Part shown: piece after piece, positions 37,069-61,186 of the stretch
Numbering within the stretch: the first letter of the stretch is position 1
Layout of the letters: every line of letters begins with the position of its first letter
From: Powellomyces hirtus
Lineage: Eukaryota > Chytridiomycota > Chytridiomycetes > Spizellomycetales > Powellomycetaceae
Reading direction: 5' to 3'
Assembly: GCA_025526995.1 (NCBI GenBank)
Contig: JAHLKG010000003.1
Coordinates: 248,001 to 312,000 of the forward strand
Length of the DNA stretch: 64,000 bases
The notes under the pieces: generated by a model
Told to the model about the DNA's origin: nothing
Seen by the model: the letters and a program-made list of their open reading frames with translations, nothing else
Database searches by the model: none
Program-made: the position numbers and the translations under genes

Positions 37069-37120
37069 TGTCGCAGGCCACTGGGGAAAGCACTAGTGCT
37101 TTCCCCAGTGGCCTGCGACA
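37069..37120. repeat. 52-bp terminal palindrome, left
   Basis: Reads the same on both strands; the centre is GCACTAGTGC and both halves end TGTCGC/GCGACA. It forms the very end of the element. Confidence 0.95.
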
Positions 37121-38455
37121 GGTGATTACCATGGGTTTTACCGGGTTTTCGGCACTTACCATAAACTGGGGATTTGGTATGGGTTTCCGGGTTTTCGGTA
37201 CGTGTAATGTTGTCCAAAACGTGTAATGAACGTGTAATAATCGCCAATACGTGTAATGTTGTCCAACTATAGGAGCAAAGTTCTATAGTTAGCAATCTTA
37301 ACCACCGTTGGCAACAAAGCCACCGACTTAGCTCGATTCAGCGCTTTTTTGGCGCCTCGTTTTCTCCGCGTCCAAAATAGCTCGCGTTCCTAGAGTCGCG
37401 TTGGTTTCCAAGTGGCACCGGTAGCCAAAACATAGCTCGCAAATTGGGGTGCGTTTGGCGTCCGGAATGTTCCATTGTTCCTATCGATGGGAAGACCCCC
37501 CGGACCCTCCCTCCGCCAAAGTACCGTCAGATCGCCGGTAGCCAAAACATAGCTCGTTCCGCCGGTGCTCGTTGGCCTCCGTTGCTCCGGTCGCCAAAAC
37601 ATAGCTCGTTTCCCTGAATGCGTTTGGCCTCCGTTGCTCCGGTCGCCAAAACATAGCTCGTTTCCTTAAGTGCGTTTGGCGCGTTCGCGACTTTGATTAC
37701 GTAATCAACCTTTGTCACATCGGTGGCAATTTTCCAAAACCAACAGAACCCCCTTGGGTAAAATTTAAGAGGGTTCTGTCCCAACGTCCAATGGACGCCA
37801 GTTGTATTCTTCTACTGTTTGGAAGTAGAAACGCTATATTGTTTAGAGCGTAAGTCCTGTAGCTTTTGGTTTTGTCCATGAGTACCCGTCGTCCTTGGGT
37901 AACTTGGGTGGCCACGAGCTGTTACTTCTCTTCTTTTATAGAACTCCCTCTTGTCTAATCTACCTATCGATAGCTAAGGTTACAACCACTATCGCCCGCC
38001 GTAAGGGGGGGGCATGATACTTCCAAGGGGGGGGCATGATAATCGCCTCCATGAAATGTAGCCATGGAGGCAACACCATATTACCAGCCCTCTCCTCCAT
38101 TGCAACCCTCCATACTTCAGTCTGTAACTCGGTAAAAAGGGGGGCATGGGGGGCATGATAATTTCAAAACTTTTCCATATATCTCTGTTTTGTAAGGTGA
38201 GGTGAGGTCAGGGGGGTCGACCTCCTCACCTCACCTTTAAAAATAAAATTGATTGAATAAAGTTTGTATTATCATGCCCCCTATGCCCCCCCTACAACAA
38301 TGAAGCTTCGCTCCATTGGTTACTCCAGGTTTCTATCCTTTTTTAACTCTACCCTCCATGCCCCCGTTCATCGAGCAAATTATCATGCCCCCCCTTCCTA
38401 TTATCATGCCCCCCCTTGTCCCCACACGAATCTTTTAGCTTCTCTTCTTTCAATA
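37069..38455 (+). repeat. Left terminal inverted repeat
   Basis: 1387 bp, the inverted copy of 59800-61186. From the outside in: a 52-bp perfect palindrome (37069-37120); four ACGTGTAAT words (37200, 37219, 37229, 37251); four copies of a CGGT(A/C)GCCAAAACATAGCTC motif (about 37420-37660); a TATAAAAG-type promoter pointing outward (about 37935); several GGGGGGCATGATAAT words in both orientations (38005-38420); and a hairpin with 14-bp arms (38194-38207 with 38224-38237). Confidence 0.97.
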
Positions 38456-38460
38456 CTCAA

Positions 38461-38808
38461 TCATTCCTTGTCTTCTGTTCGGTCGCCAAAGATAGCAACA
38501 GGCTCTTCTGTCTTCTCCCTCGTTGCTGCACGGCGGACATCAAACGACTTCTTTGGTGCTGCCTTCTTTTTGGAGTCTTCATCCTCCTTCTTCGGGGCGG
38601 CCTTTCGTTTCCTTGGAGTCTTTGGCTTGGATTCGCGGAGTAGTTCTTCGACGCGGTTCTCTGCCAAGTCCTTGTAGAAGGCATCTAGGATCTCCCTCCT
38701 GACATTTTCAGGGACAATGGAGAACACTGGGTCGTCTTCAAAAGTTTTAACAATAGCGTCCACAGAAGCCTTGTCTTTGAATGTAGATGTCTCTCGGTTA
38801 AAGTACAT
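38461..38808 (-). CDS. Small basic viral protein, unknown
   Basis: 115 residues, first gene inside the left TIR; its stop lies 5 bp from the TIR edge. The N-terminal half is helical and mixed charge (DAIVKTFEDDPVFSIVPENV), the rest is Lys/Arg/Pro-rich (KPKTPRKRKAAPKKEDEDSK, then DVRRAATREK), which suggests nucleic-acid binding or a virion core role. No family is recognised. Confidence 0.6.
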   Translation of the reverse strand: MYFNRETSTFKDKASVDAIVKTFEDDPVFSIVPENVRREILDAFYKDLAENRVEELLRESKPKTPRKRKAAPKKEDEDSKKKAAPKKSFDVRRAATREKTEEPVAIFGDRTEDKE

Positions 38809-38875
38809 TGTTTTACCTATACAATACTGAAAAATTTACAAGCGCGGTTCATTGAAGCTTAACAAACGCCGACGT

Positions 38876-39559
38876 TTAGATGACGCCGTAGTAACGCTCT
38901 ACTAAAGTATGACAATCCTTCATTTGGAAGCCTACCCCCTTCTGTACAAAATCAGTGAATCCCAAAGCCATACCCTTTTCTTGGTACGAACGCGTAGAGT
39001 AACCACTTACGCCGATGACGGGTACCGGTGGTGAAGAGGTCTCTCTTTCGAAAGCCCGTATTTCACTAACAACAGTAAGGCCATCCTTAAATGGCATTTC
39101 AATATCGGTAAATGCAATGGAGAAGCGTTGTTTCTTAAATAGAGCAATGGCTTGGACGCCATCTGATGCAGTAGACACTGAAACGCGAGGGGAGTACTTT
39201 TTCCAATAACGCTCAAACATTCGTTGTGTAATGACATCGTCATCCGCAAAGAGGATGTGGATGGTGGGAGTATCCGCCGAAGGTTCAAGTGTCGCAGGGG
39301 TCACATGGTTGGGTATAGTCCAGCCTAACTCGACTTGAAACTGTTCAGTGTTCTCGGAAGAGTTTTTGTTGCTTGTTCGCGTATCCTGGTCGGACGAGTC
39401 GTAGAGACTGGTGTGAAGGCCTTCAACGAGTTCCACAACGTTGGTGGTGAAATCTTGTATTATCTGTTTTGCCTCACTGGTGGATGGGGTCAAGTCCTTC
39501 TTCCGCACTTGGAGCTGCAGAAGCAAGTTAAAGCAGCTTTTTTTGCTTTCAGTACTCAT
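38876..39559 (-). CDS. Response-regulator receiver (CheY-like) protein in the virus
   Basis: 227 residues from the ATG at 39559 (the frame opens two codons earlier at a TTG). Residues 1-95 are helical then Ser/Asn/Asp-rich and unassigned. Residues about 100-215 form a REC domain: IHILFADDD (acidic pocket Asp106-108), phosphoacceptor Asp152 in AFTDIEMPFKDG, the switch Ser185 in VIGVSGYS, and Lys207 in FVQKG. Every residue needed for phosphotransfer chemistry is present. No output domain or histidine kinase was seen in the element, so a phosphodonor would have to come from the host; fungal hybrid kinases are the obvious candidates. It lies next to the left TIR, and the upstream gene at 39843 diverges from it. 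Confidence 0.88.
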   Translation of the reverse strand: MSTESKKSCFNLLLQLQVRKKDLTPSTSEAKQIIQDFTTNVVELVEGLHTSLYDSSDQDTRTSNKNSSENTEQFQVELGWTIPNHVTPATLEPSADTPTIHILFADDDVITQRMFERYWKKYSPRVSVSTASDGVQAIALFKKQRFSIAFTDIEMPFKDGLTVVSEIRAFERETSSPPVPVIGVSGYSTRSYQEKGMALGFTDFVQKGVGFQMKDCHTLVERYYGVI

Positions 39560-39842
39560 TTCCAATAGTGTTCAAAATTGTAGCTCCATCTGTCATTCGG
39601 TGGGATAAGTGAGGTAGAAAAATTAGAGTGCCAAATCAATGGTTCCGCTTCTCATCTCAGTGATGGAAACTCCCTTGGTATCGGAAAGATTAAGATCCAA
39701 TCAATCTTCCCAATCAAAAACTCACGGTGCAAATTAGTGTACGCGTCGCCAAACCGTACTGATCATTTTTCTTCCTTGGAGGCAGTTTATCGCGTCTTGC
39801 CTAGGACGTTATAAGCTTGTTACTTTAGTATAACAAAAAACA

Positions 39843-40184
39843 ATGAATCCGCCAAACGCGCGTACAATTGACTGTAACACGGAAGCCGAGTTCGTAAAGA
39901 TTGCAGTAGAGTACCGAGAAATTCATGGCGAGGATACAATGTGGATTGTAAGGCCCACTATCGAGAATAGAGGTCTCTTTCACAAATTGCTTTTGTGTAG
40001 CTCGTTCAAAAGCGTGCACAAAAGCAAGATGCTTTGGAAGAACCGTAAAGGATTCATAGCATTCCAAAACTTGGAGACAGAGGACGGCGAAAGGCGGAAG
40101 CTCCTTGTGTTCGCTAGGTATCAATGCAAAGAGTTAACGATCCATGATTATTTGGAGATCACGTACATCAACGAGAAGTACTAA
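39843..40184 (+). CDS. Small viral protein, unknown
   Basis: 113 residues, starting MNPPNARTIDCNTEAEFVKI. Mixed alpha/beta composition with Trp, Tyr and Cys (MWIVRPTIENRG, LVFARYQCKELTIHDYLEI), so probably a folded domain, but no family is recognised. It diverges from the response-regulator gene, and its last 4 bases overlap the end of the convergent fibre gene (40181). Confidence 0.6.
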   Translation: MNPPNARTIDCNTEAEFVKIAVEYREIHGEDTMWIVRPTIENRGLFHKLLLCSSFKSVHKSKMLWKNRKGFIAFQNLETEDGERRKLLVFARYQCKELTIHDYLEITYINEKY

Positions 40185-46454: not shown

Positions 46455-48011
46455 TTAGATGACTCTTTGGCGTTTGGTAGGCCTTGTTGCACCTGCAGCA
46501 GGAGGTCGCTTCTTTCTAAGTCCGGTTGCTTCTTCAATCATTGGATTCACTTCAAAGTTTGGAGGAATGGCAAAGTCGACGTGTGGCTGACCGCGCAACT
46601 TGGCAATCGGTCGAAGGAAGCCAGCCGCCACGGCTTCCGTTCGTTGCGGGCGGGGATCAATGACTGCAGTCGCATCAATCTGTGCATTGATGTTGCGTCC
46701 ACGGCGTTGTTTGGTTACCGCCTTGACGGATCTTAGAGTGATCTCCTCGACATCAGCATCAGTTCGTTGCTTCTTGTGAACAGTTGGCCTCCCGGGGGCA
46801 CCGGCGAGAGCAACTCGCTTTACGCTTGGATTCAATCGGAATGCCTCTGGAAGATCTCCAACGCGTGGCTTTTGCGCAGGACGTCCGGATCCCTCCTCTG
46901 CATCATTGCTTTGCTTTACACCACGGGTTGATACAGGATCCAATGTTTGCGCTCTGACTCTAGGATTTATGGTTTCGACCTGAACTACCCTTGAGGGCTC
47001 CATCGGCCCCAGGGCAATCCTTTCTTGTGCGGCATCCACAGTTCGTAGCACGGCCTTTTCAACTGTTGGCTTCTCCTTCTTGGGAGCCTTCAACCTTGCA
47101 TAAGGCTTGCGACGAAGATTGGCAAACGGAGAATGTGCAGATGCTGCAACAAAGGTATCTCGAGACATTTCAGTATTGGCAATGATATCCTCGACCTCTC
47201 TTGGATCGTTAATGGTCGTCAAGGCAATCTCTGGCTTTACTTCAATAGGTTCTGACTTGATGTAGAACGAATCCGTCATCTCTTCGTCTCTCTTTACATC
47301 AACAACACCCATGTCCGGGAAGGCGCCCGGCATCACTGGATCCTGATACTCGAAAGGATTACTTACAACAGGAGGCTTGAGGACGCTGCTGGAACCCCAA
47401 GTGATGCTTCCGGCCCCCGTTGCATTGTCGATGGAGATGGCCTTTTCCCTTGTAAGGATTACAGGGTTGATGCGCTTGGAATTGGAGTTTAACTGATCGG
47501 CAGACTGCGGTACCTCGGGGAGGTCGTGGGGCGCCTCGAAAACCAGACCCGTTGCAGCAGTTGTTGCCGCGTTGTAGTGGAAGACATTCCCCTTCGTATC
47601 AGGGATAGGTAAGCCACTGGTGGAGGTAGAGGTTCCAATGGCTACAGTGTTATGCCGTCTGGATGGAGTGATGGAGTCGAGGTACCTTTCCTTTGCTCGG
47701 AAGTCCCGTTCGGCTTTGACATACTCCTGGCCGTCCTTGTATGCCTTGGTATGGTGCTCCCCAGCCGACATCCGCATGACTTCAGCAGACGATACTTGCT
47801 TTTCACGAACGGGGGCGACATAGTTCTTCTTGGTGGCCATATCCTTGTCGTGGATGTTCCGGTTCCAAGAATACGTCACATTTGGGCGGCCGTATTCGTC
47901 GAGGTCATTGTAATCCAATGCCTGCCCGATCTGGTGTCGTTGGAGATTAGGCACACCTTTACTCTGGTTGATTCCCTTGAACTCCAGGTAGTTTGCTCTA
48001 TAGAATGCCAT
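46455..48011 (-). CDS. Viral structural-type protein, unknown
   Basis: 518 residues. The N-terminus (MAFYRANYLEFKGI, NLQRHQIGQALDYNDLDEYG) looks folded; the remainder is rich in Pro, Arg and Lys and seems largely disordered, ending in KKRPPAAGATRPTKRQRVI, a basic tail. Position between the fibre and a small amphipathic protein suggests a minor virion component, but no homology is recognised. It starts back to back with the gene at 48005; the two start codons lie within 7 bases. Confidence 0.6.
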   Translation of the reverse strand: MAFYRANYLEFKGINQSKGVPNLQRHQIGQALDYNDLDEYGRPNVTYSWNRNIHDKDMATKKNYVAPVREKQVSSAEVMRMSAGEHHTKAYKDGQEYVKAERDFRAKERYLDSITPSRRHNTVAIGTSTSTSGLPIPDTKGNVFHYNAATTAATGLVFEAPHDLPEVPQSADQLNSNSKRINPVILTREKAISIDNATGAGSITWGSSSVLKPPVVSNPFEYQDPVMPGAFPDMGVVDVKRDEEMTDSFYIKSEPIEVKPEIALTTINDPREVEDIIANTEMSRDTFVAASAHSPFANLRRKPYARLKAPKKEKPTVEKAVLRTVDAAQERIALGPMEPSRVVQVETINPRVRAQTLDPVSTRGVKQSNDAEEGSGRPAQKPRVGDLPEAFRLNPSVKRVALAGAPGRPTVHKKQRTDADVEEITLRSVKAVTKQRRGRNINAQIDATAVIDPRPQRTEAVAAGFLRPIAKLRGQPHVDFAIPPNFEVNPMIEEATGLRKKRPPAAGATRPTKRQRVI

Positions 48012-48400: not shown

Positions 48401-49561
48401 CTAAGCTTCGCGCATCTCGTAACCTAACAAGACATGGGCTTGGCCCTGGAAAGTCTTCCGGTATCCAATGCTCTTGCCGCGAAGCTCCAAGTCCTCTAGA
48501 TAAACGATGAGGAAGTTCGCGGCTTTGGTTTTACCGTTTACCGCGTCGCCGTTGTTCACTCTCCATTCTGCTAGGCCGGGATGGGTTGCTACATAAGCCA
48601 TGAACGGCTTGCTCAAGTCGCTTCGAATGCGAACAAAGCATGAGTCACTGGTGGTTTCCTCGGTGACTGAGCCCAAGAAGTTGTGCATGTACTGATAGGG
48701 AAAGCCGTGACGTCCCATTCCCTCTGCGTTGAACACGTCGTCTCGGACAGCTTTGGTTTCTTCCAACACAGCCTTCATGCCTTTCTTCATCGACTTTTGG
48801 TTTTTGAGTACCTTGACTAATGCCGTGCCTTGCTGCCCAAACTCTTCGAGCACTTGTTGGAGTATTTCCCGTTTATTCAACTCCTGCTGTTCGAGCAGCA
48901 CTTGAAGCTGATCCTGTTGGTCGAGGAACGCTTGTCTTAGCACTGTTTGCTGGAAGAGCAGCTCTCGATGATGGTCTGCCTCTTGCTTGAGCATCTCTTT
49001 GTAATGTCTCAACTGTCGCTCTTGCATGATCTCGTGTCGACTGTCTGAGCTCTTCACAATCTCAACGACATCAACGACCCAAGATGGGTACTCCACGTCC
49101 CCTTGGTAATCCATTGGTTGCAATGTCGGCATCGTTAGTTCTTCTGCCGCAGCTTTTTCCCCTTGGTCCGTAACTGATTCTGAGTCCGAGGACTCAGAGT
49201 TAATAGTCGTAGGTGACTCAGCTTCCTTGCCTTGGATCGTAGCTTCCTGGCCTTGGATCGTAGCTTCCTCGCCTTGGATCGTAGCTTCCTGGCCTTGGAT
49301 CGTAGCTTCCTCGCCTTGGATCGTAGCCTTTGCTTCCTTGGCTGCGGCTTCAGCAAGCTCGGCCTTTAGTGCTGCACGCCGCCCCCTTGCCTTCAATTTA
49401 TTTTTCTCTCGGTTTCTCACTATTGACGCTTGCTTTTTGGGTGTATAATGACTTATATCTTTCGCTGGTCCGCCCCGCTTCGATTTGGGGGTATCCACCG
49501 ACGCCCCGCCAGCGTCGTCTGCGGAAGACTTGGGAGTCTTTGTTTTTGGAGCTTTGGCCAT
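48401..49561 (-). CDS. Coiled-coil viral protein with heptapeptide repeats
   Basis: 386 residues. Basic start (MAKAPKTKTPKSSADDAGG, KARGRRAALKAELAEAAAKE); five tandem copies of ATIQGxE (plus-strand 49218-49325, 21-bp DNA repeats); an acidic Ser-rich linker; a long coiled coil about residues 165-280 (RQLRHYKEMLKQEADHHREL, EQQELNKREILQQVLEEFG); and a folded C-terminal domain (FPYQYMHNFLGSVTEETTSD, FLIVYLEDLELRGKS). No family is recognised. A fibrous or scaffold role is a guess. Confidence 0.6.
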   Translation of the reverse strand: MAKAPKTKTPKSSADDAGGASVDTPKSKRGGPAKDISHYTPKKQASIVRNREKNKLKARGRRAALKAELAEAAAKEAKATIQGEEATIQGQEATIQGEEATIQGQEATIQGKEAESPTTINSESSDSESVTDQGEKAAAEELTMPTLQPMDYQGDVEYPSWVVDVVEIVKSSDSRHEIMQERQLRHYKEMLKQEADHHRELLFQQTVLRQAFLDQQDQLQVLLEQQELNKREILQQVLEEFGQQGTALVKVLKNQKSMKKGMKAVLEETKAVRDDVFNAEGMGRHGFPYQYMHNFLGSVTEETTSDSCFVRIRSDLSKPFMAYVATHPGLAEWRVNNGDAVNGKTKAANFLIVYLEDLELRGKSIGYRKTFQGQAHVLLGYEMREA

Positions 49562-49942: not shown

Positions 49943-51037
49943 ATGTCAGAAAACTCAGGATCAACAGAACCAACCATGGATACAACCACCCAACAGGAAC
50001 GCCCAGTGCTTAACCACGCCTTCCTGTACAAGATTTGGCAACGCCAAACCTCAAAGTCGGAGGCTACTATCCAAAATGAGACAAACAGGTTGAAACACTA
50101 TTCCCAACACCTGCATCTTCTTAGATCAGGAGAGGAGATGATGGCCAAGATTGCCGAAACCCATCCAAACAGTTGCTTGAACCATACCAAGTTATTCAGT
50201 AAGATTTGCCATCTTTGTACAACTGAGGAAAAGCGGATCATTCTAGGCGACACGCTCCCCGAAGGCGCTGATGTAACTGAGACCTTTGAAAAGCAGGTAC
50301 ACTCTTACTTCAAAAAGGCTAGAAGCGACCTATGCAAAGAAAAATGGGGAGAACAGGAAGCCCAAGAGATGTCAGAAAAGGACAAGAAGAACTACGTGGA
50401 AATAGATGTCATTCGGGCACAACTGAGGACTTGGTTGAAGAACATCTCCCAAAAGAACATTATCGAGAATCAGTTCATCGTTGCCTTGGGAATTATTACA
50501 CTGTCCGACAAGATGCGACGAATGGATCCGGCTCTCATCAAGTTCCGCAACTTTAATGACAAGGATGAAGTTATCCTCATCAATGATGGAGCCGGCTTCC
50601 ATATCAAGGAATGCACAAAGACAAAGGACGCGGCAGTGACTATCCTTTTTGGCGAGGAGATGGTGCCCTACGTCAAGATGTTGATGAAAGCCCGCATCGC
50701 CAAAAAGCAGAACTATCTCTTCATGAAAGTGCAGGCAAAGACCAAAGCCGATGGTGATGAGAAACACACACTCAATCCTGATACAAAGTGGTTCTCCAAC
50801 GAGTTTAACAAAAAGATGAAGATTCTATTCGGTAAGAACTTGACAACCAGACTCATCAGGATCGCCGTGTCAATCAAACTGTCCAAGACGGATATTGGGG
50901 GCGACCTTGTGTATCACAGGTACATGTCAGACTACATGGGACACTCGTACGATATGCACAACAGAAGTTACAACCTATTCAAGGACCCCAAAAAGACGCA
51001 AGAGGCGAGCGACTCTGATGGGCAGGCTGATCAATGA
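49943..51037 (+). CDS. Tyrosine recombinase (second integrase)
   Basis: 364 residues. Residues about 25-130 fit a core-binding domain (FLYKIWQRQTSKSEATIQNE). The catalytic half shows Arg in SDKMRRMDPALIKF (about 192-193), a RLIRIAVS box II (303-308, where HxxR is usual), MGHSYDMHNRSYN with His334 and the presumed nucleophile Tyr343. The arrangement fits phage-integrase-type enzymes; a residue at the box II His position is replaced by Arg, which some subfamilies tolerate. It ends in an acidic tail. It is convergent with the retroviral-type integrase gene, overlapping it by 7 bases. It may resolve replication intermediates rather than integrate. Confidence 0.75.
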   Translation: MSENSGSTEPTMDTTTQQERPVLNHAFLYKIWQRQTSKSEATIQNETNRLKHYSQHLHLLRSGEEMMAKIAETHPNSCLNHTKLFSKICHLCTTEEKRIILGDTLPEGADVTETFEKQVHSYFKKARSDLCKEKWGEQEAQEMSEKDKKNYVEIDVIRAQLRTWLKNISQKNIIENQFIVALGIITLSDKMRRMDPALIKFRNFNDKDEVILINDGAGFHIKECTKTKDAAVTILFGEEMVPYVKMLMKARIAKKQNYLFMKVQAKTKADGDEKHTLNPDTKWFSNEFNKKMKILFGKNLTTRLIRIAVSIKLSKTDIGGDLVYHRYMSDYMGHSYDMHNRSYNLFKDPKKTQEASDSDGQADQ

Positions 51038-52416
51038 AGCGCATTGTAATCTTCTACTAACTCTGGCGCAAGTTCTATTAACTCCCTCTCTCCCCTCCAC
51101 TCATCACTGTCACTAGTGTAGCCTAGATAGCGCACCTTGTACTCTACCCTCCCCCTGTATCGTCGTTTGTCCACAATGAATTCTATCTCGTACTCTGCTT
51201 CTTCATCAACGTTGTTGGCGTTCGATATTCTAAGTGACTTTCTCCGTTGTCGTACTTGTACTTGTGGGACCTGGGGAACTTGTGCAACCTCGGAGTCTCC
51301 ACGATTAACCAGCTCGTTGTGGACGAGACTGTCATCTTGTGGTGCGTTTGGACTTTCAACGTCTTCATCAGACAAGTCCTCCAAGTCGTCATCGGCTTCT
51401 TCTATGTCCCTACTGAGGATGGGCGGGATTTCTAGCAGATCCGTTTGTGCGTACCTTCCTTTAAGTACATCTCCATTCGCGTTGGCCAGCCTGTACGATG
51501 GGAGAAAGTTGGCGTACGTCGAGTTAAGCCGTTGGACAACGGTTAGGATCTCTTTGTTCCAGTATCCAAGCAAGCCGGGCTTCTTGACTGACGATTGGAG
51601 AACTCTACGCGCCCTCACCTGCTGTCCAACGTAAAGAGGGCGCATCATCTTTTTCGTCTTATAGCGCGAGGCAAGGTTGGACGCAATCTTCTCCTGCACT
51701 TTCTGCTGCATCTCATCACCTGCGTTCTCCAAAGAGTTCGGGGTGACACCTGTAGCAAATGACTTTGAGTTGTTGATTGAATCTATAACTCCCTGGAAGC
51801 GCGACACCCACCTCTTGTCTCCGTGGAGCTCCATGAGCCTGTAGAGTGCTGCCTTGATGTCCCCTCCACGTCTTTCTACGAACGCGTTGCTTTGGGGTCG
51901 CCCAGGGGCGCTGTATGTATACTTGATCCCACGGGTGTCGAGGAGGGCTCTGTAGCGCGCTTGGAACGTGCTCCCGTTGTCTGATTGGATAATTGTGATT
52001 TTCTTACCCTCTCGTTGCATTTGATCCAACATGGACTCGATTGCGTCTACCGTTTCCTGCTCTTCTTCAGTGCGTAAAGGTCGGCCCCATGACTTCTTGG
52101 TGTATCCGTCGACCACATGGGTGAAGCCAATGTACCCGCTGTCGGGATAAGTTCGCAGGGAAACATTATCTAATTGAAGGTACCCCGGCTTTGTGATCTG
52201 TAGGGGGGCAATAGTGGAGCGGTTAGAGTTTGGCTTGTTCTGGGTTTGCCAAGAGCTCTAGTTTTTCAACCAGTACAGTATGGCACGTCGACTTCCCTTA
52301 AACTTTGGGTGCTTAGCGAGCACAGCGTCCCTTAAGCGATCTCTTCCAAAAGGGTACGTTTCATAGACCTTAGCAACAAGTTCCTCTTCCTCCGATGAGA
52401 GTGGAACAAAAGACAT
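51031..52416 (-). pseudogene. Retroviral-type (DDE) integrase with chromodomain and one in-frame TAG
   Basis: Conceptual frame from ATG 52416 to the stop at 51031, 461 codons, with TAG at 52258-52260 (codon 53; probably a CAG originally). The part before the TAG is a short helical region (MSFVPLSSEEEEL...); the part after it carries the whole catalytic core: first Asp in LQLDNVSL, second in IIQSDNGSTF, Glu in NAFVERRGGDI. The C-terminus is an SH3-like region (RPLYVGQQVRARRV), an acidic linker and a chromodomain (FIVDKRRYRGRVEYKVRYLG, then DEWRGERELI). An internal ATG at 52116 would lose the first catalytic Asp. The stop could be real inactivation or a suppressed codon. Confidence 0.85.
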
Positions 52417-52451
52417 CTCGTGTTTCTTTAAGCTGTAACTTACATATTTGT

Positions 52452-53165
52452 TTAAAAGTAGTCCTTGAAGCCATCCTTGTCGCAGTATCTGTACATGGTT
52501 TTGGCGTCATCGGCTGCGAGGTTTACGTAACAGAATGAATAAGGCTCCCGGGTGCACTCGATGAGATACGTGAGAACTTCCTTTCGGTTCTTATACGCAG
52601 AGGTGAGCAGTCGCGCCAAGATTTCCATGTCTTCCGCATTGTTCTTGAATATGATCCATTCCGTGGTGTTATTCTTTTGTTTCGATGACAACTGCGATCG
52701 AACGGACTGCACGACAACTATGGAGGAACACAGGGTATGTCTTCCTTTGCAGTATAGATTGGACAGTTCCTTGTTAAGATTTTTCCCTTGAGCATCGTTT
52801 CCTGCATCGTCTATGTAAAGCAAACATGTCCGCCCCACCTCTGCCAATTCCTTTTGTTCATTGAGGATCTCTCTAATGGTGGTGTTATTGACTTCATCCG
52901 TAAAGTATATGTTCCTATGCTTTGTTTTGTTAGCCAACTGTTGAATGCTCTTATCATAGAGTACAGTGTCAGACATGATGATTACACGGTCGAACACATT
53001 GGCATAAACTTCGTCAATCAGACCACATACCAAAGCGGATTTTCCACTTTTTCTTGGAGCGACTATGGTGGTACAAATGGGAACATCCTGAATATCGAGC
53101 GGGATCCTGGGATCTCGTACTTTCTTCTTGGTTGGAAAGATGGGCTTCGGCTTGTACGAAGGCAT
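52452..53165 (-). CDS. Genome-packaging ATPase, FtsK/HerA (A32-like) family
   Basis: 237 residues from the ATG at 53165 (the open frame extends 20 codons upstream, into the promoter of the penton gene). Walker A is APRKSGKS at 36-43 and Walker B is CLLYIDDAG at about 114-122, followed by a sensor-like SIVVVQSVRSQLS. These match the DNA-packaging ATPases shared by Polinton-like viruses, virophages and nucleocytoplasmic viruses. It diverges from the penton gene with 35 bp between the two start codons. Confidence 0.9.
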   Translation of the reverse strand: MPSYKPKPIFPTKKKVRDPRIPLDIQDVPICTTIVAPRKSGKSALVCGLIDEVYANVFDRVIIMSDTVLYDKSIQQLANKTKHRNIYFTDEVNNTTIREILNEQKELAEVGRTCLLYIDDAGNDAQGKNLNKELSNLYCKGRHTLCSSIVVVQSVRSQLSSKQKNNTTEWIIFKNNAEDMEILARLLTSAYKNRKEVLTYLIECTREPYSFCYVNLAADDAKTMYRYCDKDGFKDYF

Positions 53166-53200: not shown

Positions 53201-53926
53201 ATGTACGGCGAGTTCCTTTACTCATCTCTGAAGCAACGTGTCTACAACATCCAACCTAGGCGGGTGGAGGCGTTCAAGATCCTCTCCGTTTCGTTCCTGC
53301 AAGACTGGGACCTGGTAGAAAACGGGGTGAACAATAAGATTGCCTTTGCCGAACAAGGAAGCGACACTGTTCTATACGCAACCATCCCCAACGGTAACTA
53401 CTCGATTGTGAACTTTGGGGACGCTATCGCCTCCGCCTTGACTGCAGCCTCGGGGGCAGGCAACACCTATGAAGTGACATATAGCCCAGTAAGCCGACGA
53501 CTAACAGTTTCTACGAGCGGTGTTGATTTCAAGATTCTCGAAGGATATCGCGGCACCACAGCCTATGTATTGACTGGCATGTCGAGCAGGTACGAGACGG
53601 GATATGGAAAGAGCCTTACCTTGAAGAATCCTGTTAACCTTAGCGGGAGTTACCCGGTCCTCCTGACGTCCAACATCTCCGTAAAGGGGCAAGTGTATCT
53701 CACTGACTACACCGACGCTGCGCAGTCGGTCGTTTGTTCCATGACTCCAGATAGTTTTGGTGACATTGTCACTTGGACGAACGATGGAGGCGAATACCTC
53801 CCGGTTGAAGAAACGGTCACTAGGGTGGAATTCCATCTTGTGAATTCGTTGACTGGCCAAGAGGTTTCCTTAAATAGTCCTTTATCTGTGCGTTTCGCCA
53901 TTCTAGACGATAAAAACGATGTGTAA
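53201..53926 (+). CDS. Penton (minor capsid) protein, single jelly roll
   Basis: 241 residues. The N-terminus matches pentons of this virus group: a Tyr/Gln-rich start (MYGEFLYSSLKQRVYNIQPR), then SVSFLQDWDLVENGVNNKIA and YATIPNGNYSIVNFGDAIAS, the WD.V..GVNN and IP.GNYS words being characteristic. The rest is beta-rich (SPVSRRLTVSTSGVDFKIL) as expected for a jelly roll. It precedes the MCP with one small gene between, the standard morphogenetic order. Confidence 0.85.
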   Translation: MYGEFLYSSLKQRVYNIQPRRVEAFKILSVSFLQDWDLVENGVNNKIAFAEQGSDTVLYATIPNGNYSIVNFGDAIASALTAASGAGNTYEVTYSPVSRRLTVSTSGVDFKILEGYRGTTAYVLTGMSSRYETGYGKSLTLKNPVNLSGSYPVLLTSNISVKGQVYLTDYTDAAQSVVCSMTPDSFGDIVTWTNDGGEYLPVEETVTRVEFHLVNSLTGQEVSLNSPLSVRFAILDDKNDV

Positions 53927-53955
53927 GTTTTTTTTTCTTCGTTAAGCTTTAAAAA

Positions 53956-54459
53956 ATGAGCCAAGAAGATACATTGCAACATGAAGAATCGAGTGCCGAT
54001 GGGGAACCTACAGAGGAATCCCAATCGGTGCAAGATACCGACCAACAGCCTGAACAAGAACAGGTACGAGAGCCAGAGGTAGCTCCGGCACCACCCAAGA
54101 AGCCCCGCTCCCCCGGCCAAATCGCAGCCATGAAGAAGGCCACCGAGGCGCGAGCCAAGAACCTCCGGGAGATGCAGGCCCGGAAGAAGAAGGAGGATGC
54201 TGTTCTAGAAAAGCAACGCAAGATCGACGAGGCAAAACGCATTCTTGAAAAGGAGAAGGAGGAACGCAGGATTAAGCGCGAGTCACGGAAGAAGGCGTTG
54301 GAAGAAAAGCAAAAAGCCAAACCTGTACCCAAGGCACAACCTAAACCCAAGGCAAAGCCCGCTCCATCGTCCGCTCCTGCCACCAATCCATACACAACTT
54401 TTGTAGAATTCGATCAGTCAGAAAGTGAGGATGATGATTATGGAGGTATATTCGGATAG
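53956..54459 (+). CDS. Charged coiled-coil viral protein, unknown
   Basis: 167 residues: an acidic Gln/Glu-rich start (MSQEDTLQHEESSADG), a SPGQIAAMKKATEARAKN helix, a highly charged coiled coil (EKQRKIDEAKRILEKEKEER), a Lys/Pro tail and an acidic end (SESEDDDYGGIFG). Placed between penton and MCP, with 29 and 34 bp gaps. It could be a scaffold or cement protein; no family is recognised. Confidence 0.6.
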   Translation: MSQEDTLQHEESSADGEPTEESQSVQDTDQQPEQEQVREPEVAPAPPKKPRSPGQIAAMKKATEARAKNLREMQARKKKEDAVLEKQRKIDEAKRILEKEKEERRIKRESRKKALEEKQKAKPVPKAQPKPKAKPAPSSAPATNPYTTFVEFDQSESEDDDYGGIFG

Positions 54460-54493
54460 TCTTACTATTATTTTTTTTCTACAGCTGTAGTAA

Positions 54494-55744
54494 ATGTCTC
54501 AAGTAGCAACTGTTCCTCGAAATTGGCTATTCGCATCTTCCTCTTTTTCTAGGAGTTGGTCTGATCCTAGGGGCGAGGGGGTAGCTGTGTATAGCCCCAT
54601 TGGACAAAGCGAGTATTCTACCAAAAGTCGCAACCTTACTCCTATCAGGATTTCGTGCGACTCTAACAGCGTGAGTTTTATTCTGCAGAAACTTTTGATC
54701 TCTATGGATGTGACTGCGGTAAATGACGGTGCACCTACTTCAGGGGCTGGAATCGTCAATTCCAAACTTGGTTTAGAATCATTGATCCAGAGTATAACTG
54801 TGAAAGCCGGTGGCGTGGAAATGACCAAGATTGACAACTATCCTGCGTATCTTTCGCAAACGTACCGCAATCTGAACAAGGGACATAAGCAACTCCTCCA
54901 AAACATGAACGGATATGGAACAACCAACATCTTTGCCGGAACACATACGGCCAGTGTAAACATGCATCCAATGTTGGGATGTTTCCATCCAACTAATGAC
55001 CAGTTCTTCCCCGTCTGGGCACTTCCTAATCAAGCGTTGACTATCGAAATCGTTCTTGCTGACCCCTCGACTGTTTTCACTAGTGGAAATGTGAACGAAC
55101 TTCGAGTGTCTAACATTCGATGCCTTGTTCCATATATTACACCCCCTCCAACAATCGTCTTCAACGTCACTCGAAGTATCGCAGATGGCAAGAGCATCTT
55201 CTACGACTTTTGCCGCTCGACGATGACCGAGGCACCAGCAAGCGGCGGATCCCAAAACGTGTTCAACCTTCACATGTCCGGAGTCCGCTCTCTCATTGGG
55301 TTCGAGGCTTGTTTCGTAGATGACGATGTTCTAGCGGATCCCACTAAGGACAAGAGCGAAATGTTCTCCTCGCAAAATCTGAGGGAGTGGCGGGTCCAGT
55401 TGGGGCCAAACGCTCTTATTCCTTCGGGCGCTCAAGGGTTTACTCATGGGCCGTACAACAAAGAAACACTTCTAGTCAGTCACCTGTCAAACAACGATTT
55501 CGATCAGATGGCAGATATGGACATAAACTTCGCTGATTATGACCAAAAGCAGTTCTCTTTCAGTTACGGTTTCCAATCGAAGGACGAGGGCTCCACTGCG
55601 GCTTTGAGTTTCACAGGCACCGATAGTATCTTGAAGATTATCACCAAGCACGCATCTCCCCCTCCATCCCAAAAAGTGCGTTTGTTGACTACTTACCACG
55701 AGAATGTCACATTGTCCATCGGAGGGCTAGTTACGGTGGTCTAG
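54494..55744 (+). CDS. Major capsid protein, double jelly roll
   Basis: 416 residues. The N-terminal region contains the hallmark pattern of Polinton-like virus capsid proteins: paired strands (LTPIRISCDSNSVSFILQKL), GIVNSKLGLESLIQSITVKAG with the loop that follows (MTKIDNYPAYLSQTY), and mid-protein strands (VWALPNQALTIEIVLADPST). The second barrel includes NVFNLHMSGVRSLIGFEACF and ends in TTYHENVTLSIGGLVTVV. The length is somewhat below the commonest 450-600 residues but plausible. It is the highest-value marker for classifying the element. The assignment rests on overall pattern and gene order. Confidence 0.85.
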   Translation: MSQVATVPRNWLFASSSFSRSWSDPRGEGVAVYSPIGQSEYSTKSRNLTPIRISCDSNSVSFILQKLLISMDVTAVNDGAPTSGAGIVNSKLGLESLIQSITVKAGGVEMTKIDNYPAYLSQTYRNLNKGHKQLLQNMNGYGTTNIFAGTHTASVNMHPMLGCFHPTNDQFFPVWALPNQALTIEIVLADPSTVFTSGNVNELRVSNIRCLVPYITPPPTIVFNVTRSIADGKSIFYDFCRSTMTEAPASGGSQNVFNLHMSGVRSLIGFEACFVDDDVLADPTKDKSEMFSSQNLREWRVQLGPNALIPSGAQGFTHGPYNKETLLVSHLSNNDFDQMADMDINFADYDQKQFSFSYGFQSKDEGSTAALSFTGTDSILKIITKHASPPPSQKVRLLTTYHENVTLSIGGLVTVV

Positions 55745-56000
55745 TCTATTGAGGCGAATTGTTTCCATCAGTGTAAAAAACTGTTCAAGGTTTGAACAGT
55801 TTGTATTAGCTAAGCATACGCGTTACAGTTAACAGCTAGCTACAAACCATATCACGTGATAGGACAAACTGCAAAAGTCCTATCACGTGATAGACAAATT
55901 GGAGAAGCTGTATCACGTGATAGGGTTTCCAACAGCTTGTCATAGGGAACTAAACGCGACCATTTAAAGACATGGGTTGTATTTGTAACTACAGAGTAAA
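55745..56000 (+). promoter_or_regulatory. Region with three TATCACGTGATA palindromes
   Basis: Between the MCP stop and the zinc-ribbon gene. The 12-bp palindrome occurs at 55850-55861, 55881-55892 and 55911-55922, 31 and 30 bp apart. A hairpin-like ACTGTTCAAGG...CTTGAACAGT (about 55781-55802) just after the MCP may be a terminator. ATTTAAAG at about 55962 is a TATA candidate. Confidence 0.6.
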
Positions 56001-56177
56001 ATGGAAGAAACCAACGCACCAGCCACAACTACACGAAAACGCGACTGTAAAGGAGGCTGTGGAAACGAGATCGACTGGATCTCCCATAGGCCTTGGTGCT
56101 GGGAATGTTATCAAAAGAAACTGGCCACAAAGGCGGCCAGCTGGAGTCTGCTCGATAGCAATCAGGAAGACTCATGA
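56001..56177 (+). CDS. Small zinc-ribbon protein
   Basis: 58 residues. It begins MEETNAPATTTRKRD and carries a Cys pair CKGGC and a second pair WCWEC about 20 residues later, forming a C4 zinc ribbon. Such proteins are frequent in this virus class and are often regulators. A TTTAAA element lies about 40 bp upstream. Its end overlaps the convergent gene at 56172 by 6 bases. Confidence 0.6.
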   Translation: MEETNAPATTTRKRDCKGGCGNEIDWISHRPWCWECYQKKLATKAASWSLLDSNQEDS

Positions 56178-56387
56178 GGCCTTTCTTTTCCTTTTCGGCG
56201 TCCTTGTTATTCTGATGCGAAGATGACCATTGGGATATAGTTCCCCGTCCAGATTGGCAATCTTTTTCGCCGTTAACTGATTGATTTGCATTTGCTTGGC
56301 TAGAGATCTGAGACTCGGTGCTGTAAACGTTTTGGATACTCCAAAGTTCTCAAATGTTCCGGTGTAGTTGTACTCGCTCCAACCCAT
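56172..56387 (-). CDS. Small viral protein, unknown
   Basis: 71 residues, starting MGWSEYNYTGTFENFG. The centre may form a short helix-turn-helix (SLRSLAKQMQINQLTAKKIA), the end is basic (RITRTPKRKRKAS). A DNA-binding role is possible but not shown. Confidence 0.45.
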   Translation of the reverse strand: MGWSEYNYTGTFENFGVSKTFTAPSLRSLAKQMQINQLTAKKIANLDGELYPNGHLRIRITRTPKRKRKAS

Positions 56388-56618
56388 TATGTTATGTTCT
56401 ATAGTATTAGCTTACATGTTATTTCTCCTTATATGTGTGTGCGTTTCACGAAGCTCTAAGCTATCGATAGGAACATGAGCTACATAAGGTAACATCTAAC
56501 AAACAATCAGCTTACATCAGCGTGGGGTGGGCCATGTTTAGCTTACTGCGTTTAAAAGGTAAGAAATTTCTTGTAATGTAATAGTATAACACAGCCGGAC
56601 CAAATCCAACATTGAAAC

Positions 56619-59390
56619 ATGAGCATGCACACCCAAACTTCCATTCAGGACAAGCCTGTTTCATCTGTTCTTCCTGCGCCCGAGGAACTTATTGAAGATA
56701 ACTATGTAGACGACGGCAACGGTAATTGGGTGCTAGTCAAAACTAAGCCTGCGTCGAAGAAGCAGAAGGCAGCCAAACCCACCGGGCAAAAGCGTAAAGT
56801 CGCCAACCAGCCGATTACTCCGGTTACCAATACTGAAAAAGAACCCAACGAGAAACTTGAGGAGGAACTCCATTTCCGTACGGCAAGGAAGCGGGATTTT
56901 ACACCTCCTGTATTGTCCGAATCAGTTGCCTTCTCTTTGGTTGAATATATCCACTTTGGCCGAGTCCGTGCCATGTTGAAGAGTCCCGGCGTCCCGGAAG
57001 AAACCAAAAGCGAGTTACGCCAGTTGAAACGGAGGCAAGTGCATAAGAATGGTGTTACCACCTCGTACGCCTACGCTGCCAATGCCGTCGATAACTCTGG
57101 TCGCTTATGGGCACAAGGGCCCGCGCTCCAAAACATGGACGCCAAAACGAACAATGTTCGTCAGTATCTCGCCGCAGGTAAACTGGGCGATCTTGATCAG
57201 GTCAACTCGGTTTTCTATATTCTCGCCCATCTGCTGAAAACGTACTCGATCAAATGTCCAAATGTCGACGAGTACATTGCGTACCGTGCGGAGATTTTGA
57301 AACGGGAGAAGGTTGACAAGGAGTCAGTCATGTACCTCTTAAATTACAAACCTCGCAAAGTCCGTCAGCCTTTCTTCGCAGAGATCCATCGCGTCCTCTA
57401 CGAGAAACTTGTTCCCCACCTTCAAAAAGACTACCCTGCACTATGGGCTAAAACACTTGCCTCCCGTAAGCCGGAAACCATGCGGAATCGGGAGGGCAGT
57501 TTCTTCACCAAGGTCTCTCATACATTGGAAAACAAGATTACTCTTGCTATGAAGGAGTTTCTTGAAGAGAATGATTGGAAAGTGTCCGGGATTGTTTTCG
57601 ACGGTCTCATGTTCCACAAGCGCGACGACAAAGAGATGACACCCGATGTGTTGTTGGAGTGTGATCGATACGTAAAAGAAAAAACCGGCATCGTTTGTAA
57701 AGTGGCAGAGAAGCCCATGGACGTCACCCAAGAGTTCCTCGACCGCTTCCAGTTGACTCTTACACCAGTCGACACGGATGAACAAGAAGAGGAGGACGAA
57801 CCGTTCAGGGAAAAGGAATCAAAGAAAGATTCCAAGGGCAAGTTGGATTATTCGCGACTCAACAAACTTCCCAAGTGGCGCAAATTCCCATGGCGCCGCG
57901 TCACTAACCCTTCTCATAAGAATCTGGCAGAATGGTACTTCGAACTGCGTAACGGTGCCATTCTCAAGCATCAGACTGCAGGCTATATATACGTGCTTGG
58001 AAAGGACAATGTATGGCGACAGTTCGAATCAGTTCGCGCGTCGGACCTAAACTTGCAGGTAGCGGATTCACTTGTTCAGGAATTCCATCAACTCATACAA
58101 GATGTCAGTGACGACGGCCAGGAGAAGAATGTCAGGGCTCTCCAGCACTTATTGAACCACTTCCAGGATGAATTAGAAAGAGAGTCCTTTTCTCTGTCAG
58201 TTACGAACAACGTTGGGCGGATGGCAGACGCGAATGACAATTGTGTCGACCTCTTTCTCTCCAAACCCGAACTACTTGCCTTCAACGATGGTGTCTATAA
58301 TCTGCAGACAAAAGAATTCCGTGCAATTCTGCCCAAGGATTACATTCTGCATTCGACTGGATACGACTTTCCGAAGGGGCCGAGGAACGATACCATTCGA
58401 AAGGAATTGGAGGCGTTCTTCAGCAGTATTTACGCCAGCACTGAAGTCAGAGATTACCGTATGCGCGCCCAAGCACGTGCTTTGTATGGAAGGGTGGTTG
58501 AGGAGATATACATGGTTTTGAAGGGCGAAGGACGGAACGGCAAGGGGGCGGAGGACTACCTTATTAAGAAAGTATTTGGTGGATATTACTTCAGCATCTC
58601 ACCCAACAACCTTACAGGAACGTCGCGAAATGTAGACGCACCAAACGCACAGATGTTCAATATTTTTGGGAAACGTTACATTTCAACCTCAGAGCCCAAG
58701 GGAGGTGAAAAGATGAATACTGAGGAAATCAAGAAACTGACCGGTAACGATCCGTATACTGTACGAACCCTACACTCCAAGCCAATCTCGTTCCCCGTCA
58801 CGGGACTCCTCAATATCCAAACCAACAATATCGTCAAATGGGACAAGGTCGATACCGGACTTGTTCTCCGATCCCGTTGCTGCGAATACCCCTACACCTT
58901 TGAGCCTGCAGATGATATTGATGCAGACGATGAGGATTCTGACAGTGACGATGGCGACGCCGAGGATGCAGACATGGTCCAAAGTATGACTAAGCCAATG
59001 GATATGACATTGAAAGCACGCTTTGGGAGGACGGATTATCGCAACGAATGCCTTTTCATGTACTTGGACATATTCCAAGACATCTTTGTCCGGGATAACA
59101 AGTTCGACTTCACACTAAAGGCTCCGGACGCGGTTGCGACGTTCACGCGACAGAACTTGGTGAAAAGTCTAACGATCGGTACATGGTTCGAGAACACCTA
59201 CACCATAACCGGCGTCAAAAACGACAGGGTGCTAAAGAGTTCCATTTACGAAGCCTACGTTGCCTCGCGTCTTGGACAAGAGACAGTTTCCCTCAAAATA
59301 TTTCACAAGGAACTGGCTCCAGTATTGCCCCAAACTGTCAAACGCCGTGGCAACATATACGTAGTTGGCCTCACCATGAACTTAGAATAA
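56619..59390 (+). CDS. D5-like helicase fused to a polymerase/primase-like N-terminal region
   Basis: 923 residues. Residues 1-90 are basic and disordered. About 95-390 is a large domain with VSGIVFDGLMFHK near residue 327, a word shared with the TVpol/replicative regions fused to viral helicases; whether it is a polymerase or a primase remains open. About 410-620 is a D5_N-like segment (LLAFNDGVYNLQTKEFRAIL). The superfamily 3 helicase follows, with Walker A KGEGRNGKG at 636-643, sensor-type RYISTSEPKGG, and the PVTGLLNIQTNNI segment. An acidic loop (DADDEDSDSDDGDAEDAD) interrupts the C-terminal part. It is the only replication enzyme found in the element. Confidence 0.85.
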   Translation: MSMHTQTSIQDKPVSSVLPAPEELIEDNYVDDGNGNWVLVKTKPASKKQKAAKPTGQKRKVANQPITPVTNTEKEPNEKLEEELHFRTARKRDFTPPVLSESVAFSLVEYIHFGRVRAMLKSPGVPEETKSELRQLKRRQVHKNGVTTSYAYAANAVDNSGRLWAQGPALQNMDAKTNNVRQYLAAGKLGDLDQVNSVFYILAHLLKTYSIKCPNVDEYIAYRAEILKREKVDKESVMYLLNYKPRKVRQPFFAEIHRVLYEKLVPHLQKDYPALWAKTLASRKPETMRNREGSFFTKVSHTLENKITLAMKEFLEENDWKVSGIVFDGLMFHKRDDKEMTPDVLLECDRYVKEKTGIVCKVAEKPMDVTQEFLDRFQLTLTPVDTDEQEEEDEPFREKESKKDSKGKLDYSRLNKLPKWRKFPWRRVTNPSHKNLAEWYFELRNGAILKHQTAGYIYVLGKDNVWRQFESVRASDLNLQVADSLVQEFHQLIQDVSDDGQEKNVRALQHLLNHFQDELERESFSLSVTNNVGRMADANDNCVDLFLSKPELLAFNDGVYNLQTKEFRAILPKDYILHSTGYDFPKGPRNDTIRKELEAFFSSIYASTEVRDYRMRAQARALYGRVVEEIYMVLKGEGRNGKGAEDYLIKKVFGGYYFSISPNNLTGTSRNVDAPNAQMFNIFGKRYISTSEPKGGEKMNTEEIKKLTGNDPYTVRTLHSKPISFPVTGLLNIQTNNIVKWDKVDTGLVLRSRCCEYPYTFEPADDIDADDEDSDSDDGDAEDADMVQSMTKPMDMTLKARFGRTDYRNECLFMYLDIFQDIFVRDNKFDFTLKAPDAVATFTRQNLVKSLTIGTWFENTYTITGVKNDRVLKSSIYEAYVASRLGQETVSLKIFHKELAPVLPQTVKRRGNIYVVGLTMNLE

Positions 59391-59492
59391 GTTGAGCAAT
59401 TGTTACAAGCTTGCTTATCGATAAAAGCTTTAACACTAGGAGTAAGCTTTGCTATTTAAGCAGCTGTAACATTAGTAACATACAGAATCAAA

Positions 59493-59780
59493 ATGCTTCC
59501 AACCGAGTTACTTTACACAATCCACCGCTTCTGCGACCGTGATACAGGCGGAGTTATGACAGATGCCTGCAACCTATACTTTTCCATTCGCCAAAGGGCT
59601 CACGCTTTGGAAAAAGAACCATGGAAGAGGTTCAACAAGTTGAAGTCAATTACCTTCAATCTGGAAGGCCGTGTCTTTGTGTTCAACGACTCCCCTGCCA
59701 ATATGGACAACTGGAATGATTACATGCTTAGGAGAGGAGCGGGCATTACTTTTGCACCAGTTCGTCCCATCCAGAGGTGA
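59493..59780 (+). CDS. Small F-box-like protein
   Basis: 95 residues. The start MLPTELLYTIHRFCDRDTGG has the LP.ELL..I pattern of an F-box, followed by a helix (LYFSIRQRAHALEKEP). No substrate-binding repeats follow. Last gene before the right TIR (20 bp away). ATTTAAGC lies about 40 bp upstream. If real, it would plug into host SCF ubiquitin ligases. Confidence 0.45.
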   Translation: MLPTELLYTIHRFCDRDTGGVMTDACNLYFSIRQRAHALEKEPWKRFNKLKSITFNLEGRVFVFNDSPANMDNWNDYMLRRGAGITFAPVRPIQR

Positions 59781-59799
59781 TAGGTCCAACACAGATACA

Positions 59800-61186
59800 T
59801 ATTGAAAGAAGAGAAGCTAAAAGATTCGTGTGGGGACAAGGGGGGGCATGATAATAGGAAGGGGGGGCATGATAATTTGCTCGATGAACGGGGGCATGGA
59901 GGGTAGAGTTAAAAAAGGATAGAAACCTGGAGTAACCAATGGAGCGAAGCTTCATTGTTGTAGGGGGGGCATAGGGGGCATGATAATACAAACTTTATTC
60001 AATCAATTTTATTTTTAAAGGTGAGGTGAGGAGGTCGACCCCCCTGACCTCACCTCACCTTACAAAACAGAGATATATGGAAAAGTTTTGAAATTATCAT
60101 GCCCCCCATGCCCCCCTTTTTACCGAGTTACAGACTGAAGTATGGAGGGTTGCAATGGAGGAGAGGGCTGGTAATATGGTGTTGCCTCCATGGCTACATT
60201 TCATGGAGGCGATTATCATGCCCCCCCCTTGGAAGTATCATGCCCCCCCCTTACGGCGGGCGATAGTGGTTGTAACCTTAGCTATCGATAGGTAGATTAG
60301 ACAAGAGGGAGTTCTATAAAAGAAGAGAAGTAACAGCTCGTGGCCACCCAAGTTACCCAAGGACGACGGGTACTCATGGACAAAACCAAAAGCTACAGGA
60401 CTTACGCTCTAAACAATATAGCGTTTCTACTTCCAAACAGTAGAAGAATACAACTGGCGTCCATTGGACGTTGGGACAGAACCCTCTTAAATTTTACCCA
60501 AGGGGGTTCTGTTGGTTTTGGAAAATTGCCACCGATGTGACAAAGGTTGATTACGTAATCAAAGTCGCGAACGCGCCAAACGCACTTAAGGAAACGAGCT
60601 ATGTTTTGGCGACCGGAGCAACGGAGGCCAAACGCATTCAGGGAAACGAGCTATGTTTTGGCGACCGGAGCAACGGAGGCCAACGAGCACCGGCGGAACG
60701 AGCTATGTTTTGGCTACCGGCGATCTGACGGTACTTTGGCGGAGGGAGGGTCCGGGGGGTCTTCCCATCGATAGGAACAATGGAACATTCCGGACGCCAA
60801 ACGCACCCCAATTTGCGAGCTATGTTTTGGCTACCGGTGCCACTTGGAAACCAACGCGACTCTAGGAACGCGAGCTATTTTGGACGCGGAGAAAACGAGG
60901 CGCCAAAAAAGCGCTGAATCGAGCTAAGTCGGTGGCTTTGTTGCCAACGGTGGTTAAGATTGCTAACTATAGAACTTTGCTCCTATAGTTGGACAACATT
61001 ACACGTATTGGCGATTATTACACGTTCATTACACGTTTTGGACAACATTACACGTACCGAAAACCCGGAAACCCATACCAAATCCCCAGTTTATGGTAAG
61101 TGCCGAAAACCCGGTAAAACCCATGGTAATCACCTGTTGCAGGCCACTGGGGAAAGCACTAGTGCTTTCCCCAGTGGCCTGCGACA
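59800..61186 (-). repeat. Right terminal inverted repeat
   Basis: 1387 bp, inverted copy of 37069-38455 with the same motif order. One difference was noticed: TGTTGC at 61135 instead of TGTCGC. A TATAAAAG at about 60315 precedes a 54-codon frame (ATG 60376) that points outward and exists in both TIRs; its meaning is unclear. Confidence 0.97.
61135..61186. repeat. 52-bp terminal palindrome, right
   Basis: Same palindrome as at the left end with a single mismatch on the inner arm (TGTTGC against GCGACA). Confidence 0.95.

Follow-up and report, generated by a model that had tools for sequence, protein, structure and literature searches.

A Polinton-like virus with palindromic ends in the genome of the chytrid Powellomyces hirtus

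Results

The stretch of DNA analysed here (the window, 64,000 nucleotides) belongs to the genome of Powellomyces hirtus, a chytrid of the order Spizellomycetales, and corresponds to G000:C3:248001-312000 in a host assembly of 29.26 Mb and 60 contigs. It carries what its sequence identifies as a complete endogenous Polinton-like virus (PLV). The element went in as a linear unit, producing a 5-bp target site duplication (TSD), and is bounded by terminal inverted repeats (TIRs) whose outer ends are palindromes (Table 1). The first-pass annotation had described a complete PLV in a fungal chromosome and had placed its ends to the base. The former is supported by the fold of the major capsid protein (MCP), the gene set, the TIRs and TSD, and nearest relatives from chytrids, and the latter (37069 and 61186) by the TIRs, the TSD and the palindromes. 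The TIRs, described there as near-identical, differ in full alignment at a single position (37117, 1 of 1,387), and the TG...CA termini and the duplication ACCGT are present on both sides of this copy. New relative to that annotation are the six sister copies, the palindromes at the ends, the fibre, the putative second recombinase and the receiver-domain protein. A reported TIR match of 1,393 bp exceeds 1,387 bp because six flanking bases match through partial symmetry of the TSD. The supposed empty site restoring a reading frame in the interrupted gene had to be abandoned: the longest frames across the joined flanks are 134 and 135 aa, and since 300 random joins of host DNA gave a median longest frame of 212 aa, the 135-aa frame is no evidence for it. 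CpG depletion was also considered as a sign of methylation, and the element (ratio of 0.89) gave no clear signal relative to its flanks (0.95 and 0.81).

Table 1. Features of the window copy (positions within the window)
Feature	Position	Strand	Remarks
Complete endogenous Polinton-like virus (C3)	37069..61186 = G000:C3:285069-309186	.	24,118 bp; TIRs, TSD, palindromic ends
Left target site duplication	37064..37068	.	ACCGT
Right target site duplication	61187..61191	.	ACCGT
Left terminal inverted repeat	37069..38455	+	1,387 bp, 1 mismatch to right TIR
Right terminal inverted repeat	59800..61186	-	1,387 bp
Left terminal palindrome	37069..37120	.	52 bp, perfect
Right terminal palindrome	61135..61186	.	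52 bp, one mismatched pair (inner arm)
Receiver-domain protein, 229 aa	38876..39565	-	Response-regulator receiver PF00072, E 6.5e-17
113-aa ORF	39843..40184	+	Conserved in C13 and C30b (tblastn 74% and 51%)
Fibre/spike, 2,058 aa	40181..46357	-	Adenovirus-fibre-like repeats near N-terminus; F5/8 type C domains
518-aa protein, unknown	46455..48011	-	Conserved in C30a (36%) and C30b (79%)
386-aa protein, unknown	48401..49561	-	ORF; no Pfam family over cut-off
Putative tyrosine recombinase, 364 aa	49943..51037	+	R192/193, K226/228, R306, H334, Y343; motif and spacing
rve integrase core and C-terminal chromodomain	51031..52257	-	Stop-to-stop frame
N-terminal stretch of integrase frame	52258..52416	-	Closed by in-frame TAG at 52258-52260
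A32-type packaging ATPase	52452..53165	-	PF04665, E 6.9e-6 to 9e-6, over cut-off
Presumed penton/minor capsid protein, 241 aa	53201..53926	+	Adjoins MCP; match in all seven copies
167-aa protein between penton and MCP	53956..54459	+	Conserved
Double-jelly-roll major capsid protein, 416 aa	54494..55744	+	Fold confirmed
90-aa ORF	55954..56226	+	Conserved in C8, C25, C13, C50 (60-71%)
D5-type primase-helicase with N-terminal extension, 923 aa	56619..59390	+	

An MCP search of the host genome yielded seven copies, all with open capsid frames (416-428 aa). Five are complete, namely the window copy (C3), C8:760242-785197, C25:28544-53149, C30:86357-111551 (C30a) and C30:114665-139423 (C30b), and two (C13 and C50) are interrupted by contig ends. 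The complete copies all have the same terminal anatomy and different 5-bp TSDs (ACCGT, TCGGA, ACGGA, GGCGT and AATGT), which lie directly outside the palindromes. TIR mismatches number 1 in 1,387 in C3, 3 in 1,516 in C8, 6 in 1,422 in C25 and 4 in 731 in C30b; C30a has 2 mismatches and one gap in 1,334 (right side read to 1,552 bp). TIR identity in the four complete copies outside the window is 99.5-99.8%.

All 12 assembled ends of the seven copies are palindromic over 52 or 54 bp, and 11 of them perfectly so; the exception lies on the right of the window copy, where one pair is mismatched. Five further palindromes were found, on C11, on C19, on C50 (a second one), on C7 (one mismatched pair) and on C3 (a solitary one). 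The genome thus holds 17, of which 15 are perfect and 2 have one mismatched pair, in six sequence classes (P1-P6); more classes may exist, because the pattern searches used known edges. Within the window, a scan covering even-length palindromes (arms of at least 14 and at most one mismatch) found no other, and no palindrome comparable to the ends arose in 20 mononucleotide shuffles of the window. Given this result, and the same anatomy with different TSDs in 5/5 complete copies, chance can be ruled out for the end structure.

The classes change sequence and keep their symmetry. Mirrored arm differences amount to 9/9 for P1/P2 (26-position arms), 6/6 for P4/P5 (27-position arms), 15/15 for both P1/P3 and P3/P6, 16/16 for P2/P3, 6/6 for P1/P6 and 8/9 for P2/P6; such mirroring restates the palindromy of both members, and the added fact is that the sequences differ. 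The outer edge fits T[AG]T[CG][AG]CAG[GT][CG]CA (12 bases) in all six classes, and the inner flank just past the palindrome is GGT in five classes and GGG in one (GG in 6/6). TG...CA termini were rejected as a family rule, P1, P2 and P6 complying and P3-P5 ending in TA...TA. The TIRs are alike between classes (74-75% over about 175 bp). All eight palindromes tested by folding gave complete hairpins.

The palindromes come from nine contigs. At six sites, namely five copies and one solitary palindrome, both flanks can be read, and every one of these is flanked by a 5-bp TSD of its own. The solitary palindrome (C3:481967-482018) matches the left end of the window copy exactly and is flanked by CATGC on either side; in the simplest reading, it is what remains of an excised copy.

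An rve integrase is present in all seven MCP copies, with an open frame in five (C8, C13, C50, C30a and C30b) and several stops in C25. In the window copy, the part at 51031-52116 matches PF00665 (E 9.3e-10) and PF00385 (E 1.1e-8), both over the Pfam cut-offs, in agreement with the original call of an integrase. In six of the seven copies, a putative recombinase gene located by search adjoins rve in convergent orientation, and it occurs in two types (C3/C8/C25 and C13/C50/C30b). Tyrosine recombinases have the catalytic residues R-K-R-H-Y, with about 9 residues from H to Y. At the motif level, the C3, C8 and C50 types contain R, K, R, H and Y in this order, H and Y lying 9 residues apart, and we regard the protein at 49943-51037 as a putative tyrosine recombinase. 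C30a has a motif-only candidate about 4 kb from rve (L048:178-1338), with R, H and Y only and an H-to-Y distance of 8; its hhalign comparison with the C50 type gave E 0.0021 and 13% probability. Among 5.8 billion proteins, the window candidate found only itself, and homologues of the C50 type were two Powellomyces proteins and one unnamed protein.

The second gene and the palindrome centre vary together, with the integrase and the outer arms staying alike. This is clearest between C3 and C8: their rve proteins are 92% identical and their recombinases 47% identical, and in the palindrome arms the first 15 positions are identical and 9 of the 11 inner positions different. Moreover, C8 and C25 share a 99% identical recombinase and the same palindrome, as do C13 and C50 (99%), and the C30b recombinase, 70% identical to that of C13/C50, goes with a palindrome that has the central 18 bp in common with theirs.

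Regarding the remaining genes of the window copy, the MCP, packaging ATPase and D5-type helicase had been called correctly. The helicase assignment is based on D5_N (E 1.1e-9, over the Pfam cut-off) and phrog_1156 in PHROGs (E 6.9e-29), with NCBIfam TIGR01613 below cut-off (E 5.6e-21). A motif suggests a possible TVpol in its N-terminal extension; relatives of the 923-aa protein in C8 (27%) and C25 (29%) match part of the N-terminal half only. The penton call is presumptive: the protein at 53201-53926 is presumed to be a penton from its position beside the MCP and its conservation across the seven copies, and it gave no profile match in Pfam, PHROGs or NCBIfam scans. In C25 its frame looks broken, because the match falls in several pieces. 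The fibre has F5/8 type C domains (PF00754 E 6.9e-16, PF22633 E 4e-13) and, when residues 1-300 are scanned alone, a match to PF06536 over cut-off (E 9.6e-9) that is unlisted in the whole-protein scan; its relatives are 58% (C30a) and 79% (C30b) identical. Neither a protein-primed DNA polymerase B (pPolB) nor a protease domain nor a chitinase was found among 11 open reading frames (ORFs) of the window copy scanned with Pfam, and searches of solved structures by sequence (MCP, both recombinase types, fibre) gave no credible match. Replication genes vary within the family, C30b having a Prim-Pol and DUF5906 and C30a a helicase like the herpes origin-binding protein; the comparison of gene conservation among the copies misses genes in the interiors of C8, C25, C13 and C50, which were read only in part.

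Other observations concern elements elsewhere. A fragment at a contig start (L046, G000:C11:1-5000) joins a C8-class TIR (98.4%) to an interior that shares 98% identity with the window copy and is probably a mosaic formed through recombination; it also encodes a protein 99% identical to the receiver-domain protein of the window copy. C30a has a second short receiver-like ORF near its integrase (L047:6244-6627, judged by eye). The C50 copy encodes a C-5 cytosine DNA methyltransferase (L053:4462-6636, PF00145 E 1.2e-34), and C13 has a frame of equal length. A replicase-like match (35%) at G000:C8:1093508-1094374, distant from any capsid copy, may belong to another element type or a remnant.

Discussion

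Judged by its MCP sequence, the window copy is an endogenous PLV close to that of Spizellomyces punctatus. Its MCP is 65-66% identical to proteins of S. punctatus DAOM BR117, and every nearest relative with a name is a protein of a chytrid or of a chytrid virus. It has a double-jelly-roll MCP, an A32-type ATPase, TIRs and a length of 24.1 kb, and PLVs are described as having TIRs and 14-40 kb (PMC12220804). It is not the first PLV in fungi, since an integrated S. punctatus PLV was published in 2021 (PMC7805220) and six Powellomyces viruses have been named. The latter are Powellomyces chytrid fungus MELD viruses 1-6 in the NCBI taxonomy; the hexon of no. 5, from the same host genus, is 66% identical to the window MCP over 99%. 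These names probably come from Starrett 2021. The S. punctatus group is integrated in a chytrid of the same order as P. hirtus (PMC7805220), and integrated relatives in a fungus and in oomycetes have TIRs, with TSDs of 5-7 bp given for three elements (PMC7805220, Bellas and Sommaruga 2021). It differs in having a chitinase in 52% of members (PMC7805220), whereas none was found in the ORFs scanned here, and the word stem 'palindrom' is absent from the text of that paper. Mavericks/Polintons share the rve integrase, TIRs, double-jelly-roll MCP and A32 ATPase, and the TSD lengths cited for them, 5-6 bp (PMC8547959), include the 5 bp found here. However, Mavericks/Polintons sensu stricto combine PolB with rve, whereas the window copy combines rve with a D5-type primase-helicase, and adintoviruses have a PolB with an OTU-like domain (PMC11071296); the 11 ORFs scanned contain no PolB.

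How might such ends work? The reading we favour, with confidence that is evenly balanced, is that of a PLV with hairpin ends, in which the rve integrase nicks at the border of palindrome and TIR and the putative recombinase acts on the palindrome centre. The extrachromosomal genome would be linear, with its ends folded or closed into hairpins at the palindrome centre. The integrase would nick the hairpin stem at the palindrome/TIR junction (CA or TA, then GG), leaving the entire palindrome as a 3' tail; strand transfer would then give the 5-bp TSD, and gap filling would restore a complete palindrome at each end. If the integrase nicks the stem, the inner border is its cut site, and the GG found there is expected if this site once extended into the TIR; an integrase acting on free linear ends should be indifferent to that border. 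The putative tyrosine recombinase might either resolve replicated ends or recombine two palindromes at excision. The latter would leave one TSD-flanked palindrome, as seen once (C3:481967-482018).

Several points weigh against this reading. The sequences analysed are chromosomal copies, and the solitary palindrome is a single case. The integrase frame of the window copy is cut by one in-frame TAG (52258-52260), unless this is spliced out, which also qualifies two earlier statements, that many genes are intact and that the element was recently active; the latter agrees with the single TIR mismatch and with the TIR identities of the four other complete copies. Regarding the second gene, PF00589 reached E 0.02-0.028, below cut-off, in two of four C50-type members that are mutually 99% identical, and the C50 protein got a better score from a model for sigma factors (E 0.0015, far below cut-off). 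The window and C30a candidates matched no useful family in the profile scans, the AlphaFold model of the window candidate was unusable (pLDDT 39.5), and BLASTP and hhalign of small alignments gave no credible similarity to TelN of phage N15. Finally, the covariation of recombinase and palindrome centre is drawn from four groups, and some of these share a common descent.

The palindromes might instead be symmetric sites at which a tyrosine recombinase joins the ends; the provirus would then depart as a circle carrying one palindrome, the other would stay behind in the chromosome, and hairpin telomeres would not exist; we hold this to be possible, with distinctly less conviction than an even call. 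Identical palindromes are also direct repeats, and one recombination between them would yield a solitary palindrome with its TSD, as in the case described. Ordinary recombinase sites are usually shorter, however, and have an asymmetric core, and this explanation leaves aside the symmetry of 52-54 bp to the outermost base and the common GG at the inner border. Circular donors have been inferred for tyrosine recombinases of phaeoviruses and PLVs (PMC13236599, PMC4642659, PMC12220804), but 5-bp TSDs at insertion fit rve rather than recombinases (PMC12220804).

A parvovirus-like rolling hairpin, in which free 3' palindromes prime themselves and the integrase or another nickase opens them, would require neither closed telomeres nor a resolvase. 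The complete hairpins formed by all eight palindromes tested agree with it, and the lack of a protein-primed PolB among the ORFs scanned (the window copy and parts of others) makes a priming problem at the ends plausible. Nevertheless, we find this unlikely: no Rep-type nickase was seen among the ORFs scanned, the other copies being read only partly, the Prim-Pol of C30b may prime, and rolling-hairpin replication alone leaves the covariation of second gene and palindrome centre unexplained. Symmetry without a role, whether inherited from one origin, produced by assembly or serving only a dimeric integrase, seems very improbable to us. The copies are indeed related and their TIRs resemble each other among classes, but between palindrome classes of the same length 6 to 16 arm positions have changed with the symmetry retained, and drift without function would destroy it. 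The nine contigs, the separate TSDs at the six readable sites and the absence of such palindromes from the 20 shuffles also speak against it.

Returning to hairpin ends, known systems offer partial parallels. Protelomerase targets are near-perfect palindromes of about 40-60 bp, a range into which the P. hirtus palindromes fall. The telomere site of phage N15, which adjoins its enzyme gene, has 56 bp and 2 mismatched pairs, compared with 52-54 bp and 15/17 perfect in P. hirtus. Phaeoviruses likewise have a large palindrome as telomere-resolvase target (telRL-like), with hairpin ends proposed, but there the palindrome lies inside the provirus, and a tyrosine recombinase distinct from the resolvase is credited with insertion (PMC13236599). 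The mid-GC EMALEs of Cafeteria also combine an rve integrase and a predicted tyrosine recombinase with short TSDs; they differ in being virophages, and 'palindrom' and 'hairpin' are absent from the text describing them (PMC8547959). Chytrid PLVs were already known, as were virophages with two recombinases (PMC8547959) and phaeoviral telomere resolvases (PMC13236599). The literature searched (Polintons, virophages, PLVs, adintoviruses and chytrid viruses; subscription literature covered in part) yielded no account of PLVs with palindromic ends. In IMG/VR, alignments of the MCP (58 stretches) and the integrase (289 stretches) gave no confirmed relative, and palindrome patterns returned 4 loci from one search and none from another, only L065 with a perfect palindrome. 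The latter, of about 84 bp at a contig start (L065:1-84, central 42 bp tested by script), shares its contig with a gene whose translation looks ParA-like. The contig is perhaps a bacterial linear replicon or a phage, and the palindrome may be a hairpin telomere of such a replicon that was read through; its nine-base likeness to P4/P5 is taken as chance because the search targeted those bases.

A broader proposal, which we put forward only tentatively and think rather doubtful, is a chytrid PLV lineage with hairpin telomeres, in which a viral resolvase of tyrosine-recombinase type would make and resolve the near-perfect palindromes, its specificity would evolve with the palindrome centre, rve would open the base of the stem, and one structure would serve protection, replication, insertion and an excision that leaves a scar.

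To conclude, the ends of a PLV are placed here at single-base precision for five complete copies within a single genome. They fall into classes that differ in sequence but stay symmetric, and their changes partly parallel those of a second recombinase-like gene; one candidate for an excision scar is also present. An adenovirus-fibre-like protein is also added to a fungal DNA virus. To our knowledge, no mechanism has been established by which PLVs lacking a protein-primed polymerase preserve and replicate their ends. Powellomyces hirtus is a chytrid that can be grown in culture, and the end problem of PLVs becomes directly testable in it. Palindromic, hairpin-capable ends suggest a testable route by which PLVs may protect, copy and insert their DNA.

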